From positions 558,001 through 622,000 of the forward strand of contig NZ_CP019630.1 of NCBI RefSeq assembly GCF_001999245.1: a stretch of DNA of 64,000 nucleotides. The letters run 5' to 3'. Within the stretch, counting starts at the first letter, position 1, and each line of letters starts with the position of its first letter. The stretch is from Roseibium algicola (GTDB taxonomy: Bacteria; Pseudomonadota; Alphaproteobacteria; Rhizobiales; Stappiaceae). The notes beneath the pieces were generated by a model. It worked only from the letters and a program-made list of their open reading frames with translations, was not told the DNA's origin and did no database searches. The translations under genes were made by a program, and so were the position numbers. Below are positions 1 to 43,598 of this stretch, piece by piece.

Positions 1-1088
1 AACATCAACACGCCGTTGTCGACGGCCGGGCCTCGCTTTTCGATCGCGGTCGAGGTGTTGATCCGGAACGCCGTATTGTAAAGCCCGAACCTCTGTACGG
101 CGGACGCCCCGAAATAGAAGCCGTCTCCCCCCTCGTCCTCATCGCTAATGACATAGGCAAGATCCAGATTGGCCGTGCTCTTGCGGAAATCGGCCTCGGT
201 GAACAAGCCGAGAAGGAAGGCACTGTCGTCGAGTTCATTGTCGCCGCGGCGGATATTGTTCCAGCCGAAAACGCCGGTTGCCCTCAGATCCGGCGTCAGG
301 CCGGGAATGACGATCGTGTCGCGCGTGATGCCGAGCGCGTCGACACTGTCGTTGATCATCATGCCTTCCTGAAAGAACAGGGGCTGACGGCCGATGGAAA
401 ATCCGAAGTCGAAATTGCGGTTGTCGTCCGGATCGAGGTTCGGGAAAATCTCGCCGAACTCCCCCTCGAAGAAAAGTGTCGTCACATAGGGATTGAGCCC
501 GTTGACATATTCAACGCCACCTTCATCCGTATAGAGAATGCCCGTGTTCCGGCGTTTTTCCGTCAAGGGCGAAAACCCGATGAGGATCCGCTCGGTAGGT
601 GTCAGTTTCAGATTGGCAAAGATGTCGATACGGCTCGCCCAGAACTGGCGCGGATCTTCAACGCCGTTGGCATAGTGGCCAATTGCGGTGCGCGCGTCGC
701 CGAACACCCAAAGCGCCGGTTGCCAGATTGCCCCGGTCGGCAATTCGATACCGGGCGCAAGATTTCCGCTGGCGAGGAATTTCTCGCCGCGCTGGAAGAT
801 CGGTGGCGTCGGTTCAGGCTCCTCATCTTCCGCTATGATCGGAACTGCATCGGTGCTCAATTCGCTTGAATGGTGGTCACCGGCAATCAGGGGGGCAGGC
901 CCGCTGTTTTCTTCCTGATGCTTGCGGACTTCCGCTTCCGTGACCATGGGAATGGGGTCGTCGCTCAAGGCACTGCCCGCTGCCCATACCTGCCCGCCGG
1001 CCTGCAGAAGAAGCGCAGCCGAAGCCACCGTCGTGATTGCCCACGCTCTGAACCGCCGTCCCCGAGTTCTGCTTGCCTGGTACCTCAT
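1..1088 (-). CDS. Outer-membrane beta-barrel (porin-like) protein, C-terminus cut by window edge
   Basis: The frame is open from an ATG at 1088 to the first base of the window, giving about 362 residues of an incomplete protein. The N-terminus has basic residues, a hydrophobic stretch and an AxA-like site (ending VWAAGS), so it is probably exported. After an acidic linker the chain is rich in alternating aromatic and polar strands and Gly/Asn/Asp turns, as in outer-membrane barrels. Its ATG overlaps the stop codon of the upstream cytochrome gene (ATGA), so the two are translated together. This suggests a barrel working with a multiheme cytochrome, possibly as an electron conduit or assembly partner. 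I recognise no specific family. The missing C-terminus would show whether it ends in an aromatic barrel signature. Confidence 0.7.
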   Translation of the reverse strand, partial: MRYQASRTRGRRFRAWAITTVASAALLLQAGGQVWAAGSALSDDPIPMVTEAEVRKHQEENSGPAPLIAGDHHSSELSTDAVPIIAEDEEPEPTPPIFQRGEKFLASGNLAPGIELPTGAIWQPALWVFGDARTAIGHYANGVEDPRQFWASRIDIFANLKLTPTERILIGFSPLTEKRRNTGILYTDEGGVEYVNGLNPYVTTLFFEGEFGEIFPNLDPDDNRNFDFGFSIGRQPLFFQEGMMINDSVDALGITRDTIVIPGLTPDLRATGVFGWNNIRRGDNELDDSAFLLGLFTEADFRKSTANLDLAYVISDEDEGGDGFYFGASAVQRFGLYNTAFRINTSTAIEKRGPAVDNGVLM

Positions 1089-3400
1089 TTGAGCACGACA
1101 CTCGCCTTGCGCGTCCACAGCACGGAGCTGCCCTGCACCACCTTGCGCGCGATACCGGCCGGGCTCATGCCGTAGTCGAAGCCCGCTCCCTGAATGGCCG
1201 CGATCAGGTTGACCGGCACCATCTGTGAAATCAGCTTCACCGAGATGGAATAGCGTTCACCCGGCTTCAGGTTTTCGGCGGGAACGGCATAGGTCGCGGT
1301 GCGGCTTGCCCCCGGTTCCAGGTTCTGCTTGTGCTTTCTGGCCCCGCGCGGCCTGCCGTAGATGGTGGTTGCCCGGCGTTCCGGCCGAACGAGCGGCAGA
1401 ACGTCCGTCGAAGTGTTCACCGCCAGCACCTGTTCGCGTTCACCGCCACGCAGCAACCGGACCACGAACTTGGATTGCAGGCTGAACAGGTCCTTGTCGA
1501 GCTTCAGCTCGCCATTGTGAACGTAAAGCGAGTGGGCATCGCGAACGTCGCCATTGGGGTCTCGGTCACCGGACACATAAACCGTGTTGCCCTTGCTGTC
1601 CTTGACCGTCACCTGAAGGAATATCAGCCGTTCGGCGTCAAACCCGGTCGGCACACCGTGTCCGTCCGTGCCGCTGCTGACATCGACGGAGAACTTGAGA
1701 GCCCGGCTGGTGTTGTCGACAATGGTGATGTCGCTCAGCTTGAAGCCGTTGCGCAGCACCTGAAGCCGTGCCTGACGCGCCTTTTCCAGCCGCTCGAACT
1801 GGGTATCCAGGATCTCGCGGCCATCATAACGATCATCGATGGACGACCAGGCTTCGGGAAACTTGTAGCCGTCCTTGACGTTGTCCTCGAACTTGTCCGT
1901 TCCCCAACCGGCGCCGACATTGAACTGCAGCCATTCAGCCAGCGTCTTGAACTCCGCCGCCTCGACGTTGTGCGGGAAAATGCCCGGATGAATGATCGAG
2001 TAATCAGGGCCTGCAAACATGTGGTTGGTCAGTTTGCGGTTACGGGTCGGGACATCACCAACGATTGCGGCGGGGCCGTAGTCATAGCCGGAGGCAACGC
2101 CCTGAACCTTGCCCATATGGCAGTCCTGGCAGGTCTCGCCCCGCTTGGCGGCCGGCGAGCGCTTGTATTCGGCAAAAGCCTCTTCAAGCTTGAAGCCGTT
2201 GAACAGCGTCACATCATGACAGGTGCCGCAAAAGCCTGGCTTGGTGAGCGCGAAGAAAGGCTTCGCCTCGGTATGGATGCTGCGTCCCGGATCATCCTTG
2301 CTTTGGGAAACCCGGTATTCCTCGGGCGTGTTCAGAACGCGCTTCAGCTCCTCGCCGCCCTTCGGGCCATAGACCGGCGAGAATACATCCCCCTCTTCCA
2401 GCGCGAACCGGCCACTGATCTTGCCGTAGTTTCGGCTGACGCGGTGGCAGGCAACGCAGGTGATGCCCTCCCGTGAGGTCGGGTTGCGCTTCAGGTTTGA
2501 GACATAGAGCGACTCGCCAATGTTCATGCCGACCGGGTTGTGACAGCGAATGCAAAAGTCGCCGTTGGTCGCGCTGGTCTTCATGTTGATGGTGGTCTGC
2601 ATCGCCATGTAGATCGGGCTCAGCTGCGCATAAGCATGCTGAGAAACGGACCATTGCTCATACTGGCCAGGGTGGCAGGTCGCACAGGTGTTTGCGGAGG
2701 GATATTTGCTTTCCAGGAAGAGCTTTTCATGCTCCGCATTGGCTGTTCGCCGGATCGTTTCTTCTTTTTTCTTGCCTTCGACGGTTTCGGTCAGCCCGGT
2801 TCCGCCGCCACTCAGCAGGTCGTCATCATCGCCAACTGTCAGAAGGTCATCATCGGAAAGAAGATCGTCATCTCCTGCCAGAAGGTCGTCGCCGGAAACA
2901 TCGGCCCCGTCGCCCGCAAGCAGGTCATCACCTTCAAGCAAATCATCCCCGGCCAGAAGGTCATCTCCAGCCAGAAGATCATCTCCATCAGCCTTGGGAT
3001 CATCACCTGCCAGCAGATCGTCACCATCGGAAACAGAGGCGGCACCGGGTTCCTCTGCGGTCAGCAGATCATCGCTTCCGTCATCGGAAGGCAGCAGGTC
3101 GTCACTGCTGTCCGTCAGAATCGCCTCATCCGAAACTGCGTCTTCGGCGGGCGTCAGCAAGTCATCATTCTGTTCGGCTTGCGCCAGGATCAGGCGATCG
3201 CCGGCGCTCCTGCCGTTTTCGAGTTGGGATACGAAATCGACCAGCGCCCGTACATCGCCAGATTGGATAAGCTGCTGGTGATACTGCCGAAATTCGTCTG
3301 AAAAAGCGGCTGCGCGATCAACACTGCCGGCGCCGGAAAGGATGAGTATTCCGAAAAGAGGCTTCAAAAACGGTCGAAAAAATTCCGATAAACGCGACAT
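1085..3400 (-). CDS. Exported pentaheme c-type cytochrome with Asp-Asp-Leu-Leu repeat linker
   Basis: The product is about 771 residues. It has a signal peptide (basic start, hydrophobic core, RAAA-FSD cleavage region) and so acts outside the cytoplasm. Residues about 79-196 hold twelve copies of DDLL, mostly as G/S-DDLL-A/S-G, forming a very acidic linker. Five CXXCH heme-attachment motifs follow: CATCH (about 239), CIRCH (283), CVACH (315), CGTCH (391) and CQDCH (424). The last 320 residues lack hemes and look beta-rich. The heme part resembles cytochrome c554-like multiheme proteins. I chose the ATG at 3400, preceded by GGATCTGGA, over an upstream TTG at 3415 because it starts the signal peptide. 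The stop overlaps the start of the barrel gene (ATGA). The electron partner is unknown. Confidence 0.82.
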   Translation of the reverse strand: MSRLSEFFRPFLKPLFGILILSGAGSVDRAAAFSDEFRQYHQQLIQSGDVRALVDFVSQLENGRSAGDRLILAQAEQNDDLLTPAEDAVSDEAILTDSSDDLLPSDDGSDDLLTAEEPGAASVSDGDDLLAGDDPKADGDDLLAGDDLLAGDDLLEGDDLLAGDGADVSGDDLLAGDDDLLSDDDLLTVGDDDDLLSGGGTGLTETVEGKKKEETIRRTANAEHEKLFLESKYPSANTCATCHPGQYEQWSVSQHAYAQLSPIYMAMQTTINMKTSATNGDFCIRCHNPVGMNIGESLYVSNLKRNPTSREGITCVACHRVSRNYGKISGRFALEEGDVFSPVYGPKGGEELKRVLNTPEEYRVSQSKDDPGRSIHTEAKPFFALTKPGFCGTCHDVTLFNGFKLEEAFAEYKRSPAAKRGETCQDCHMGKVQGVASGYDYGPAAIVGDVPTRNRKLTNHMFAGPDYSIIHPGIFPHNVEAAEFKTLAEWLQFNVGAGWGTDKFEDNVKDGYKFPEAWSSIDDRYDGREILDTQFERLEKARQARLQVLRNGFKLSDITIVDNTSRALKFSVDVSSGTDGHGVPTGFDAERLIFLQVTVKDSKGNTVYVSGDRDPNGDVRDAHSLYVHNGELKLDKDLFSLQSKFVVRLLRGGEREQVLAVNTSTDVLPLVRPERRATTIYGRPRGARKHKQNLEPGASRTATYAVPAENLKPGERYSISVKLISQMVPVNLIAAIQGAGFDYGMSPAGIARKVVQGSSVLWTRKASVVLK

Positions 3401-3787
3401 TCCAGATCCACACAAAACATGTTCTCAGGCCATCGCTTACACCGATCCCCCAACTCAAATTCACACTACGGAAACCTCAGGACAACATCAAAAGAAAACT
3501 GTTCACAAATTAGCCGCATTTTCGCCTTGGTAAATTCGCGGCTAACCGCAGAAACAAACAGAGCAACGCACTGTCGCGTCGCTAACCGGTGCCTTCAAAT
3601 TTCGGGCAATGGCGTGAATCAATTGCGTTGCCGGCAGCATTCGCCCGGAAGGTCACAAAGTTGCTGCCGCTGTGTTTCCGCTCGCAACAACACATTCTCG
3701 CAAAACAATGTTTGCGTCACACCAGCACACAGACTGGATTACCTGCAGCGCAGCGAAATAGGACTATGAAGGTGGGAAGAAGGAAAG
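3401..3787. other. Intergenic region upstream of the cytochrome gene
   Basis: No convincing coding frame, RNA gene or strong promoter was seen. The stretch ends at the left end of the integrated element and presumably carries the promoter of the cytochrome/barrel pair, which reads away to the left. I found no FNR-type or other redox-regulator box. Confidence 0.4.
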
Positions 3788-3812
3788 TGGCGGAGAGGAA
3801 GGGATTCGAACC
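3788..3812 (-). repeat. Distal att site: 25-bp copy of the tRNA-Ser 3' end
   Basis: The 25 bases are identical to 5152-5176, covering the CCA end, discriminator base, 3' acceptor strand and T-arm of tRNA-Ser on the minus strand. Identity ends sharply at 3813 (g, where the tRNA copy has c at 5177) and at 3787/5151. No other tRNA part is present, so this is an attachment-site duplication rather than a decayed full tRNA gene. Confidence 0.85.
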
Positions 3813-3856
3813 GAACTCTTTAGAATCCTTATTTTTCAATAACTTATATTGATTTT

Positions 3857-3907
3857 GGTAGGAATTCCACCAAGTTTCTACCAAGTAGCTACCAAGCTTC
3901 TACTAAA
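3857..3907 (+). repeat. Left iteron array (four 11-bp units)
   Basis: Four head-to-tail units of about 11 bp with consensus close to TTCTACCAAG are preceded by an inverted half-unit GGTAGGAA. The array starts 44 bp inside the distal att copy. The helical-turn spacing and position suggest binding sites for an integrase arm domain or an excisionase. Confidence 0.75.
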
Positions 3908-4006
3908 TTCCAGAGCAAATTTTGCGGCGGGCGAACCGCGAAAAAGCACGACTTCTGGGAGCTCAACTTCCCCCAATGATGCGATAAAGCTGACTGCTGA
4001 AAGTAC

Positions 4007-4858
4007 CTAGGCATCAGAAGGTTTGCGAGAAACAAGGTACGTTACAAAAGATGCGCAAGCGCCCAACATGAACAACGCATCAGCTTCATCAACATGAGCT
4101 TCATTTTGAAAAACGAGCGCATGTCGGACACCTTCTTCATCACTCGTATATCCGTAGAGTGCGCTAAAAGCAGTCTTTAAGCCTCCATGCAGGCGGCCGT
4201 CTTTTTCCAGCACTGCCAGAGCTGCTCCCAGTGTCCCCTTATTTGGGGCGAGCAAAAGAGCCATTGATTCTACCGCATTAATGCTCTCCCTCACGGAGGC
4301 CGCCCATTCGCCGTCGCGAAGTGCCGTTCCTGCTGAAATCAAATGAGACCTCGCAGCAATGGAACCACTTTTTTCAGTATCAGTGATGGCGCGCTCAAAT
4401 GCCTCGGCTTGCTCCTCGGAGCCAATTGCAATAATTCTTTGTTCTACGATGCGATATGCTGCGCGAGATTCTACAAACGCTCGTGACAAATCTCTCTTGA
4501 GCTCGTGGCTACATTGTGGATTGCGAACAAAAAACTCAATCGCATCAAACAAAAAGCCAATTTCTGACTTTTGGGTTAGCTCTTGCAAACCCTTCAAGAG
4601 GTCAGTTGGATTTGCTCTGTAGTTTGAAATTCTTTGCTTGAGAAATTTTACGTGAAAGTCCTGAGCAACGCGTCCCCAAGCTTTATTATAAAATATACCA
4701 TTATAGTTGGAACCAGTATTTCGATCCCATTCAAGCTGAAGGTAGTACTCAAGCAACTGCCTAAGTTCACTTGACACTTCGCCAAGCTTGAGCTGCGGCG
4801 GCACTTGACTGAGACCTGCTCTCTGCGAAAAAGGAATGTAAGGGTCTTCAGTTGTCAT
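4007..4858 (-). CDS. AbiJ-like abortive-infection protein (AbiJ N-terminal domain plus HEPN-like C-terminus)
   Basis: The product is 283 residues. The N-terminus (about 7-45, beginning IPFSQRAG and continuing ELRQLLEYYL) resembles the AbiJ_NTD4 domain found at the head of AbiJ proteins. The C-terminus (about 165-283) matches the conserved AbiJ tail, with YTSDEEGVRHAL at 237-248 and DEADALFMLGACASFVTYL near 258-275, a region regarded as HEPN-like and probably RNA-targeting. AbiJ proteins belong to abortive-infection phage defence. It is the only gene inside the tRNA-Ser element, and its AT-rich codon use differs from neighbours, supporting transfer. The start ATG at 4858 has only a weak ribosome site. 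Family assignment is by recalled motifs, not a search. Confidence 0.75.
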   Translation of the reverse strand: MTTEDPYIPFSQRAGLSQVPPQLKLGEVSSELRQLLEYYLQLEWDRNTGSNYNGIFYNKAWGRVAQDFHVKFLKQRISNYRANPTDLLKGLQELTQKSEIGFLFDAIEFFVRNPQCSHELKRDLSRAFVESRAAYRIVEQRIIAIGSEEQAEAFERAITDTEKSGSIAARSHLISAGTALRDGEWAASVRESINAVESMALLLAPNKGTLGAALAVLEKDGRLHGGLKTAFSALYGYTSDEEGVRHALVFQNEAHVDEADALFMLGACASFVTYLVSRKPSDA

Positions 4859-5038
4859 TCAATGCATATACCCCAAAGCGGGCACGTACGTTCGCAATCA
4901 AAACCACTTTTTTCGAGTTTCCACCGTTTCGTCGCTTGGTACGAAGCGAACTTGCGCCCAGGGAGTGATGGGAGAAGATAGCGGACTTAACGTTGGAAAT
5001 TAACGATCACGAACGGAGCTTTCTTACTCTCCGCCACT

Positions 5039-5089
5039 GGTAGAAATTCTACCAAAAATCTACCAAGCCTCTACCAAAATTCTACTAAA
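5039..5089 (+). repeat. Right iteron array (four 11-bp units)
   Basis: The array holds an inverted half-unit GGTAGAAA then four 11-bp units close to TTCTACCAAA, matching 41 of 51 positions of the left array in the same orientation. It ends 62 bp before the tRNA-Ser core. Immediately outside it, 5027-5036 is an inverted 10-bp copy of the att core end (ctctccgcca), which may be chance or part of the recombination site. Confidence 0.75.
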
Positions 5090-5151
5090 AAAACGGGAGA
5101 AACGCTTGGGTTTTTAGAAAAACCGCAGAAAACTGCCAAAAAAATAGGCAA

Positions 5152-5241
5152 TGGCGGAGAGGAAGGGATTCGAACCCTCGAGACGGTTGCCCGTCTACTC
5201 CCTTAGCAGGGGAGCGCCTTCGACCACTCGGCCACCTCTCC
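5152..5241 (-). tRNA. tRNA-Ser, anticodon GCT
   Basis: On the minus strand the gene runs from acceptor strand GGAGAGG (5241-5235) to CCTCTCC followed by G and an encoded CCA (5152-5154). The anticodon loop is CTGCTAA between stems ending TCCCC and GGGAG, giving GCT (serine AGC/AGU codons). A long variable arm, as expected for class II tRNA-Ser, and a normal T-arm (GGTTCGAATCC) are present. The gene is intact and its 3' end was used as the attachment site of the adjoining element. Confidence 0.95.
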
Positions 5242-5580
5242 GGTAACGCCCGTGTACGAATAAAAGCCTCACAGTTCAAGGCGTTTTTTACGCCTTGTCA
5301 CTTTTTCCACCGCGCTTGGCCTCGCAACTTCTGGAAGGTGAAGACAGGCATCGAACGCTGAAATCCGGCATCGTCTTCACAAATCGCGGAACCAGACGCT
5401 TGGTTCGTTTGAAAATGAACCGCCTCTTTCCACCCGTCGCAAGTCGGGTTGGCAATTCGCTCGCCAGGTTTCGCTTTTTTTTCCTCACCACCCGGCCACC
5501 GTCACATCTTGGAGTTGACTTTTGGCGCGCCACCGGCAAAACGACCCTCTTTCATCATTGAATTTGGCTTTGGGTGATAC
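5242..5580. other. Intergenic region upstream of tRNA-Ser and the DUF1796 gene
   Basis: Short open frames occur on both strands but none resembles a protein or has a good ribosome site. The region should hold the tRNA-Ser promoter (minus strand) and the promoter of the DUF1796 gene. I could not pick out a confident -35/-10 pair. Confidence 0.4.
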
Positions 5581-42238: not shown

Positions 42239-42757
42239 CTATTCCGCTGCTTCCAGTCGTTCCGGCTTCAGAGCAGCAACAAATTGTTTGCGCAGGAGGG
42301 CGAGCTTCGGGTCGATATAGGTCTTGCAGAACGGGCGTTCCGGCCCCTTGGCATAGTAGTTCCGGAACTGTTCGTCCGAGGCCTTGAACTCGGCAAGCGT
42401 CATTACACGCGTCACAAGCGGTTCGTCAAAGCGCTGCTGCAAGGCGCGCATCAGCCTTCCGACCTTCACACCTGTCCCGGCGTCATAGACGTAAACGGCA
42501 CTGCGATACTTGCCGCGCATCTTGTGGTGGGAGGTGCTGGAGTGGGTGCGCAGATGGATCTCGAGCAGGACTTCCAGCGGCAGTGCGACCGGATCGAAGG
42601 TCACCACCACCGCTTCTGACCAGGCATTTTCTGGCGGATCGGAGCGGATGAAGCCCTGTTCCACCTTCGAAATGCCCGCAATTGCCTGAAAGACGGCCTC
42701 CGTGCACCAATGGCACCCGCCGCCCAGCCCGATTTTCACCCCGGCCTCCAATGTCAT
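42239..42757 (-). CDS. msrA: Peptide methionine sulfoxide reductase MsrA, divergent type
   Basis: The product is 172 residues. The active-site motif reads GGGCHWCTEAVFQ (Cys15) where typical MsrA has GCFWG/C. Later conserved blocks are recognisable but altered: EVLLEIHLRTHSSTSHHKMRGKYRSAVYV (usual H-D-P-T...QYRSAIY) and FRNYYAKGPERPFCKTYIDPKLALLRK. It reduces methionine-S-sulfoxide in proteins. Cys18 and Cys near 150 are potential resolving residues. The ATG at 42757 follows GGGAGC; a longer frame upstream lacks a site. Confidence 0.82.
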   Translation of the reverse strand: MTLEAGVKIGLGGGCHWCTEAVFQAIAGISKVEQGFIRSDPPENAWSEAVVVTFDPVALPLEVLLEIHLRTHSSTSHHKMRGKYRSAVYVYDAGTGVKVGRLMRALQQRFDEPLVTRVMTLAEFKASDEQFRNYYAKGPERPFCKTYIDPKLALLRKQFVAALKPERLEAAE

Positions 42758-43049
42758 GATCGATGCTCCCAGTGTGACGTCAGGCATTTCGTTTGCAAAA
42801 CGGCTTGGGGGAGATTCCCCCAGACGAGATCTTATGCCGACAATTGACAGGCTGCGCACAACATAAGATTGTGAGGCGTGATCAATCGCGCGACCCTTCA
42901 TCTAACCGTGGTGCATATCGTCGTTCCCGCAGGGGACGCGAGGGGATCACTGTTGGCTGAAGACATCTAGCCGGATCGCATCGCAACCCTGCTTCGAAGA
43001 GCAGGGTTTGTCAGATGCCTGCTCTCTCGATCCAACGAATGAGAGCAAA

Positions 43050-43598
43050 ATGAGCATTTCAGACATCCCCGCGGAATTTGCACCGGTCTCCAGGGCAGGT
43101 AACTGGCCCGAAGGCCTGATTATACGCGCCGAAAGACCGGACGACGTGGACGGTTTGACCGTCCTGCAAGGTCTGCCGAAGTTCCGGGCGGGTACCTTGC
43201 GCCTGCCCTACCCACGGCGCAAGGACATCGAGGCCCGTGTGAACCAGTCCTCACCGGATAAGGTGTCCCTTGTCGGCATTTTGGGCGGGACTCTGGTCGC
43301 CGCCGCCGGTTTTGCCCGTTCCGCCGGACGGCGCGGACATGCGGCCAGTCTGGGCATGGGCGTGCACGACGATTACACCGGACGCGGGATCGGCCGGGCG
43401 ATGCTGACAGAGCTGATCGAGATTGCGGACAACTGGATGAACATCCGCCGTCTGGAATTGACCGTCTTCACCGACAATGAAGCCGCCGTCAGGCTCTATC
43501 AGACACTTGGCTTCGAAATAGAAGGCACCCACAAGGACTTTGCCTTCCGCTCCGGGTCGTTTGTCGACGCCTATGCGATGGCGCGGCTCAGGAGGTGA
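43050..43598 (+). CDS. GNAT family N-acetyltransferase
   Basis: The product is 182 residues. The acetyl-CoA loop is in SLGMGVHDDYTGRGIGRAMLTELIEIAD, followed by RRLELTVFTDNEAAVRLYQTLGFEIEGTHKDFAFR, characteristic of the GNAT fold and close to RimI/PhnO-like enzymes. The substrate is unknown. The ATG at 43050 is followed by the start of the domain at about residue 22. A palindromic intergenic repeat lies 30 bp after its stop. Confidence 0.82.
   Translation: MSISDIPAEFAPVSRAGNWPEGLIIRAERPDDVDGLTVLQGLPKFRAGTLRLPYPRRKDIEARVNQSSPDKVSLVGILGGTLVAAAGFARSAGRRGHAASLGMGVHDDYTGRGIGRAMLTELIEIADNWMNIRRLELTVFTDNEAAVRLYQTLGFEIEGTHKDFAFRSGSFVDAYAMARLRR

Follow-up and report, generated by a model that had tools for sequence, protein, structure and literature searches.

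The term CIME denotes a cis-mobilizable element (PMC5704250), and in Dehalococcoides 15 islands located at ssrA have been reported without an integration module (PMC3146451). The movement of defence islands that lack transfer genes is described as unclear in the account of PMC10121019. Concerning the recombination sites, it is established that integrases bind arm-type sites by their N-terminal domain (PMC2951348). As for the cargo considered here, AbiJ proteins have been described as a HEPN family linked to abortive infection, to which N-terminal domains 1 to 5 are fused (PMC3710099). Integrase-less units located at tRNA genes and carrying defence cargo were not found in a literature search, which is not proof of their absence; the text available for PMC6360697 mentions an 85-kb region without integrase, not single-gene units of this kind.

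The window, i.e. the whole stretch of 64,000 nt analysed here, corresponds to positions 558001-622000 of contig NZ_CP019630.1 (hereafter C1) of Roseibium algicola GCF_001999245.1 (genome of 6.65 Mb). It contains a very small element inserted at the 3' end of a tRNA-Ser gene, with the following features (window coordinates):

3788..5151, no strand: whole element, made of the distal core copy and the unique DNA that extends to the core within the tRNA gene (1364 bp start to start)
3788..3812, minus strand: distal att core, a copy of the tRNA-Ser 3' end (25/25 identity)
3856..3907, minus strand: distal arm-type array, composed of four TTGGTAG-like units with a period of 11 bp and one inverted unit
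4007..4858, minus strand: AbiJ_NTD4/PDC-S32 gene, 283 aa, sole cargo, co-directional with the tRNA (Pfam PF18863, 4.7e-14; PADLOC, 1.6e-57)
5023..5038, plus strand: inverted core-like 16-mer at the edge of the tRNA-side array (sequence identity 15/16)
5038..5089, minus strand: tRNA-side arm-type array, composed of four TTGGTAG-like units with a period of 11 bp and one inverted unit
5152..5176, minus strand: att core within the tRNA gene (25/25 identity)
5152..5241, minus strand: tRNA-Ser(GCU), intact integration target

Judging from this organization, the element probably belongs to the CIME type: a tyrosine-integrase element that is non-autonomous, has been reduced to one gene with a putative role in phage defence and would be served by an integrase acting in trans. 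Apart from the PDC-S32 gene, the stretch between the cores holds one 91-aa antisense frame and nothing else among frames of at least 80 aa, and neither its frames nor an integrase profile search of it revealed any integrase gene or match. The arrays, which are 52 bp long and located 43 and 62 bp from the cores, have the same orientation and are identical at 42 of the 52 positions (81%), against 31/52 for the best of 500 pairs resampled at equal dinucleotide frequencies. Read in the direction of the tRNA, each of them consists of four direct TTGGTAG-like units with a period of 11 bp followed by one inverted unit, which sits at the same end of both arrays. A first-pass annotation had claimed a perfect 25-bp tRNA duplication, paired arrays of four 11-bp units in the same orientation and a single gene without integrase; all three were recovered, each array having the inverted unit in addition. 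The inverted core-like 16-mer, which the first-pass annotation does not mention either, is possibly a trace of an earlier rearrangement (the next best match in the 25 kb scanned, apart from the cores, is 12/16). The composition of the element is foreign: its G+C content is 45.6%, compared with a mean of 58.6% (sd 2.4) for stretches of the same size to its right, and none of the 1339-bp stretches from position 5300 onward goes down to this value.

The tRNA-Ser core (at least 24/25) is present in 35 of the 36 other same-genus genomes searched, G023 having none. It occurs once in 34 of them and twice in G022, where the two copies are on separate contigs and both match the whole tRNA; no second nearby copy was detected in the 36 congeners. 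In the congeners G002 and G026, the right flank is found at 85–86% identity together with an intact tRNA, without the element. To the left of the tRNA, the homology with them is not regained before about C1:548,510; a further stretch of ~13 kb thus differs in the nearest congeners as well, and none of them offers an exact empty site that keeps both flanks. This stretch, which separates the element from the conserved left flank (window 1-3787; L065 from about 10509) and is missing there in G002 and G026, carries cytochrome-like genes, as read from its frames, and part of it is found elsewhere in G003 and G017. The cytochrome clusters of these two genomes were considered as marks of an empty site and rejected, as they are located elsewhere. 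Relatives of the window protein were found in two of the 60 other genomes, G029 (34%) and G040 (33%), neither of them at the tRNA-Ser site of the window, and in a search of plasmid DNA the matches of the 20 records listed, out of 129, are confined to the part of the query that is tRNA. At this tRNA-Ser, no different cargo was encountered between the same iterons, as envisaged in the first-pass annotation; the other units described below carry the same gene family, and their arms are different.

The two arrays are very probably arm sites of an integrase, because the same anatomy recurs in four of the five integrase-bearing tRNA elements scored, of which two are located at this very tRNA-Ser in congeners. 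Among 18 stretches from 17 congener genomes, a tyrosine integrase adjoins the tRNA-Ser in two, G024 and G029. The G024 element is 19.3 kb long, with a core copy of 22/25 and an integrase whose catalytic match is just below the cut-off; the G029 candidate element is about 51 kb long, with a core copy of 17/25 (14 bp exact) and an integrase that possesses an arm-binding domain. In both elements, each end carries short repeats spaced by 12 bp, with the same orientation at the two ends. An arm score, devised after the window, G024 and G029 had been seen, searched for an 8-mer (one mismatch allowed) repeated at 10–14 bp within 160 bp of both cores. Scored in the same orientation, the window element reached 6, i.e. 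arm-type repeats flank its core on both sides, and G230 (an integrase-bearing element described below) reached 4, G035-Arg 3, and G082 (an integrase-less unit, see below), G024 and G029 2 each, with 0 for the units G325 and G162 and for G035-Asn. Both G035 elements contain an integrase-like frame, so that four of the five integrase-bearing elements pass, G035-Asn being the exception. In the opposite orientation, the score is 0 in all nine elements, the window included, and 1 in 2700 resampled pairs gave any score. The earlier suggestion that an integrase-less cargo element had kept core and arm sites is supported by the anatomy of integrase-bearing elements.

It could be proposed instead that the arrays are operator or replication iterons and the core copy an unrelated duplication, a highly improbable explanation in our view. 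Scans of the collections for the 11-bp TTGGTAG/CTACCAA array alone retrieved at least 119 genome stretches and 17 viral ones, and 132 of the 136 have neither a tRNA within 500 bp nor a tRNA-like core, as this explanation would have it. A tRNA lies at 500 bp or less from the array in three stretches (L078, L105 and L108) and a tRNA-like core is present in one more (L197); integrase-like frames (E<1e-5, within ~3.5 kb) are found beside the arrays in five (L103, L108, L147, L177 and L197). In L108, from a Clostridia MAG (1041-1335), 79 bp separate the end of a tRNA-Pro from four CTACCAA units with an 11-bp period, after which come another pair and an integrase (Pfam, 5.7e-27). In L197, from a viral contig (2157-2460), TTGGTAG arrays in the same orientation lie on both sides of the tRNA-like core and adjoin an integrase-like gene (profile E 5e-42, Pfam match below cut-off), a layout that looks like the one expected of an unintegrated (phage-like) attachment site. 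It is because of L108 and L197, where such arrays are neighbours of an integrase and of a tRNA end (L108) or a tRNA-like core (L197), that a role other than that of arm sites is judged less likely. Furthermore, the arrays of the window are placed next to the cores, on the inner side of each and with a common orientation, like those of integrase-bearing elements; one of them is located 3' of the gene, and the element has no replication gene. Most of the 136 array stretches lack neighbours of this type. L108 and L197 differ from the window in the orientation of the array relative to the tRNA, in their cores and in their hosts, and are not the helper since their cores differ. Arrays of CTACCAA with an 11-bp period also recur on many contigs of single Bacteroidota MAGs (e.g. 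UBA7600 and RUG11699; L069-L187).

The integrase that the element would borrow, which the first-pass annotation placed elsewhere with the same arm unit, was sought in the own genome, in the order sample and in viral contigs, and no helper for this core was found in any of them. The own genome has 11 integrase matches and no second array beyond chance (arm pairs in the element and in two other single places, versus three for a reversed control). The exact array patterns were found in none of the 60 other genomes and in none of the 396 other genomes of the order sample (1/397, the own genome), and two scans of viral contigs for a core-plus-arm match gave 0 and 0. The arm pattern of G082 had 11 matches in viral contigs, nine of which share one near-identical stretch; in none of the 11 was there a tRNA, an integrase match or any of the core words tested.

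The only cargo gene encodes a protein that matches the Pfam domain AbiJ_NTD4 (PF18863; 53.6 bits for a cut-off of 34) and the PADLOC defence candidate PDC-S32; no match was obtained in NCBIfam, and the sequence matches in the PDB were weak, concerning coiled-coil subunits and a single ribosomal protein. Among the 814 relatives found, 120 were listed and 25 were aligned with the window protein; this alignment has 60 invariant positions, including R245 and H246, which are also nearly invariant across the 28 loci of the family described below. AbiJ_NTD4 is matched in 25 of these 28 loci. Searches of plasmid and phage proteins with the window protein returned 5 and 4 records, respectively. A scan of genome contigs and viral contigs with the single protein gave no match, and an alignment-based scan of viral contigs gave four loci, none with a tRNA. 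Judging from its AbiJ relatives, the window protein would be a defence RNase, with a putative HEPN domain in its C-terminal half. The element could also be as described above and its gene non-defensive, e.g. a stabilizer keeping the element in place, which we regard as unlikely; this explanation overlaps with the other readings, and its probability is not to be added to theirs. It draws on the fact that the defence assignment relies on family names and on the presence of a homologous frame in a Rhizobium phage record, and it is opposed by the listing of PDC-S32 as a defence candidate in PADLOC and by the link reported between AbiJ-type HEPN proteins and abortive infection (PMC3710099). The frame of this phage (RHEph01; L270, record 42512-43324) is of the AbiJ_NTD4 type, is 38% identical, lies near the end of the record and is annotated there as shorter hypothetical genes. 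The name PDC-S32 was not found mentioned in a literature search, AbiJ_NTD4 was found named in one paper, and we know of no member of the AbiJ_NTD4/PDC-S32 subfamily that has been tested.

The same gene family is found beside other tRNAs. PDC-S32 was searched in samples of the order (13/397 genomes at E<=1e-20), class (10/385) and phylum (7/398, both at E<=1e-15); as the window is in each sample and G577 in two, this gives 27 loci, and 28 with the G029 relative. A co-directional tRNA lies less than 700 bp upstream in seven of the 28, i.e. the window (Ser), G325 (Phe), G082 (Glu), G162 (Thr), G230 (Glu), G883 (Val) and G1107 (Ser(GGA)), and none is that close in the other 21, which include two loci with short upstream DNA that were counted as misses (6 bp in G1023 and 447 bp in G292). 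With the window left out, the tail for 6/27 is 8.6e-9, a value that applies to loci of many genera the density of tRNAs measured in two congeners (102 matches in 12.65 Mb). In the gene tree, where 8 of the 25 inner branches are well supported, the tRNA-linked genes appear in several places, and the window and G082 belong to a well-supported clade with G427 and G142.

Four of these loci, the window, G325, G082 and G162, are att-bounded units at four different tRNAs with PDC-S32 as their only long gene, the far-side copy of the tRNA 3' end being 16 bp in G325, 16-17 bp in G082 and 52 bp in G162. The class of such elements that had been guessed from the window alone is thus extended by three PDC-S32-only units. 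No integrase was detected in these three by profiles, which were grown from frames around the integrase matches of the own genome and can miss distant integrases, and their other open frames are 138 aa or less. Clear arms are seen in two of the four units, the window and G082, which has TTGTGTAA 12 bp apart at both ends; a repeated word is common to both ends of G325 without a periodic array, and G162 has the core copy without clear arms. No far tRNA copy was detected in the stretches examined for G883 and G1107. The PDC-S32 gene of G883 (L286 8130-8969), located by tRNA-Val, has an internal stop and is adjoined by TAGTACCC repeats 11 bp apart. In G577 (L296), a tyrosine-integrase-like gene lies ~3 kb away from PDC-S32 and a tRNA-Leu farther out, and no core copy was found. 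A census of 78 tRNA records (own genome without the tRNA of the window, and part of G035; 68 stretches, some overlapping) detected two att-bounded elements of 20 kb or less, of 12.6 and 7.8 kb, both from G035 and both with an integrase-like frame, and no other integrase-less unit in these two genomes. Integrase-less single-gene units at tRNAs are therefore not common in the own genome and G035.

PDC-S32 is also carried by integrase-bearing elements. The 12.3-kb G230 element is bounded by a tRNA-Glu and a 17-bp core copy and encodes a 457-aa integrase at its far end; PDC-S32 adjoins the tRNA, and TTACCC words occur three times at 13 bp at both ends. The 11.4-kb G427 element, inserted at a tRNA-Met with a 17-bp copy, encodes a 659-aa integrase at the tRNA end and PDC-S32 inside, which runs in the opposite direction; both ends of the element show GTGGTACAC-like repeats, which are outside the arm scoring. 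Its PDC-S32 protein is the closest to that of the window among the 28 loci (60%). No integrase-bearing element with PDC-S32 cargo was found to have the core and the arms of the window. As PDC-S32 is also cargo of complete elements, the loss of the integrase is therefore the simplest origin of the small units. In the main rival explanation, which we consider somewhat unlikely, a larger autonomous element would have been deleted in place down to one gene, leaving a dead and immobile remnant whose sites are intact because the deletion is recent. The existence of autonomous elements with the same cargo (G230 and G427) agrees with such a decay, as does the core copy without clear arms of G162, which decay predicts, and no helper is known for the core of the window. 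However, the four units are separate and carry the same gene family at four tRNAs, two of them have both arm arrays intact, and the core of the window is perfect.

Taken as a whole, the history of the element as a non-autonomous unit could be viewed as follows. The ancestor would have been an autonomous tRNA-site element carrying PDC-S32, like G230 and G427, which later lost its integrase. An integrase provided by another element and recognizing TTGGTAG-type arms would have inserted the unit at tRNA-Ser(GCU), and the re-entry of such an integrase into the cell would lead to its excision again. The PDC-S32 gene would be kept because it blocks phages, probably by an RNase-type abortive response such as that read from AbiJ relatives. 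For the window element, we infer both the movement in trans and the defence function. More tentatively, the single-gene PDC-S32 units might be a recurring class of trans-mobilized defence cassettes, each tuned to a different integrase; with the same reserve, a cassette could be viewed as one defence gene framed by the core and arms of an available tRNA-targeting integrase, a counterpart of MITEs and CALIN cassettes.

New here are the three further att-bounded units with PDC-S32 alone and the linkage of PDC-S32 to tRNAs in seven of the 28 loci. With the cis sites of an integrase and one gene, the 1.3-kb unit of the window is a very small test case for the movement of islands; the four units offer test objects, and G230 and G427 the integrase-bearing comparisons. 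If an integrase moves the unit in trans, a defence gene can be disseminated alone, with hardly any accompanying DNA, and island finders relying on integrases would miss such units. The data suggest that defence genes may move one at a time, in very small units that ride on the integrases of other elements.

Compared with known systems, the element of the window resembles CIMEs as described in PMC5704250, in that both attachment sites are kept (25/25 cores and two arrays) and genes for integration and transfer are lacking. It differs from the CIMEs of that description, decayed ICE or IME remnants that are often in tandem with another element, as it is a lone 1.3-kb single-gene unit and as units of this kind, with a gene of the same family, are found at other tRNAs. 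It does not fall under the definition of an IME or of a genomic island with its own integrase, as it has no integrase gene. The Dehalococcoides islands are likewise integrase-less and bounded by copies of the end of an RNA gene, but they involve a serine recombinase system and other cargo, and the text available for PMC3146451 mentions no arm arrays. According to the accounts given of them, the integrase-only defence islands of E. coli (PMC10121019) and the tmRNA islands of Pseudomonas (PMC12595487) also combine defence cargo, RNA-gene sites and no known transfer genes, but they encode an integrase, unlike the element of the window. Finally, CALIN and MITE hitchers, as presented in PMC11389934, are also non-autonomous and moved by an enzyme encoded elsewhere; they rely on attC sites or transposase ends, whereas the element of the window has tRNA cores and arm sites. 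With this difference, it would work like a hitcher that depends on the integrase of another element.
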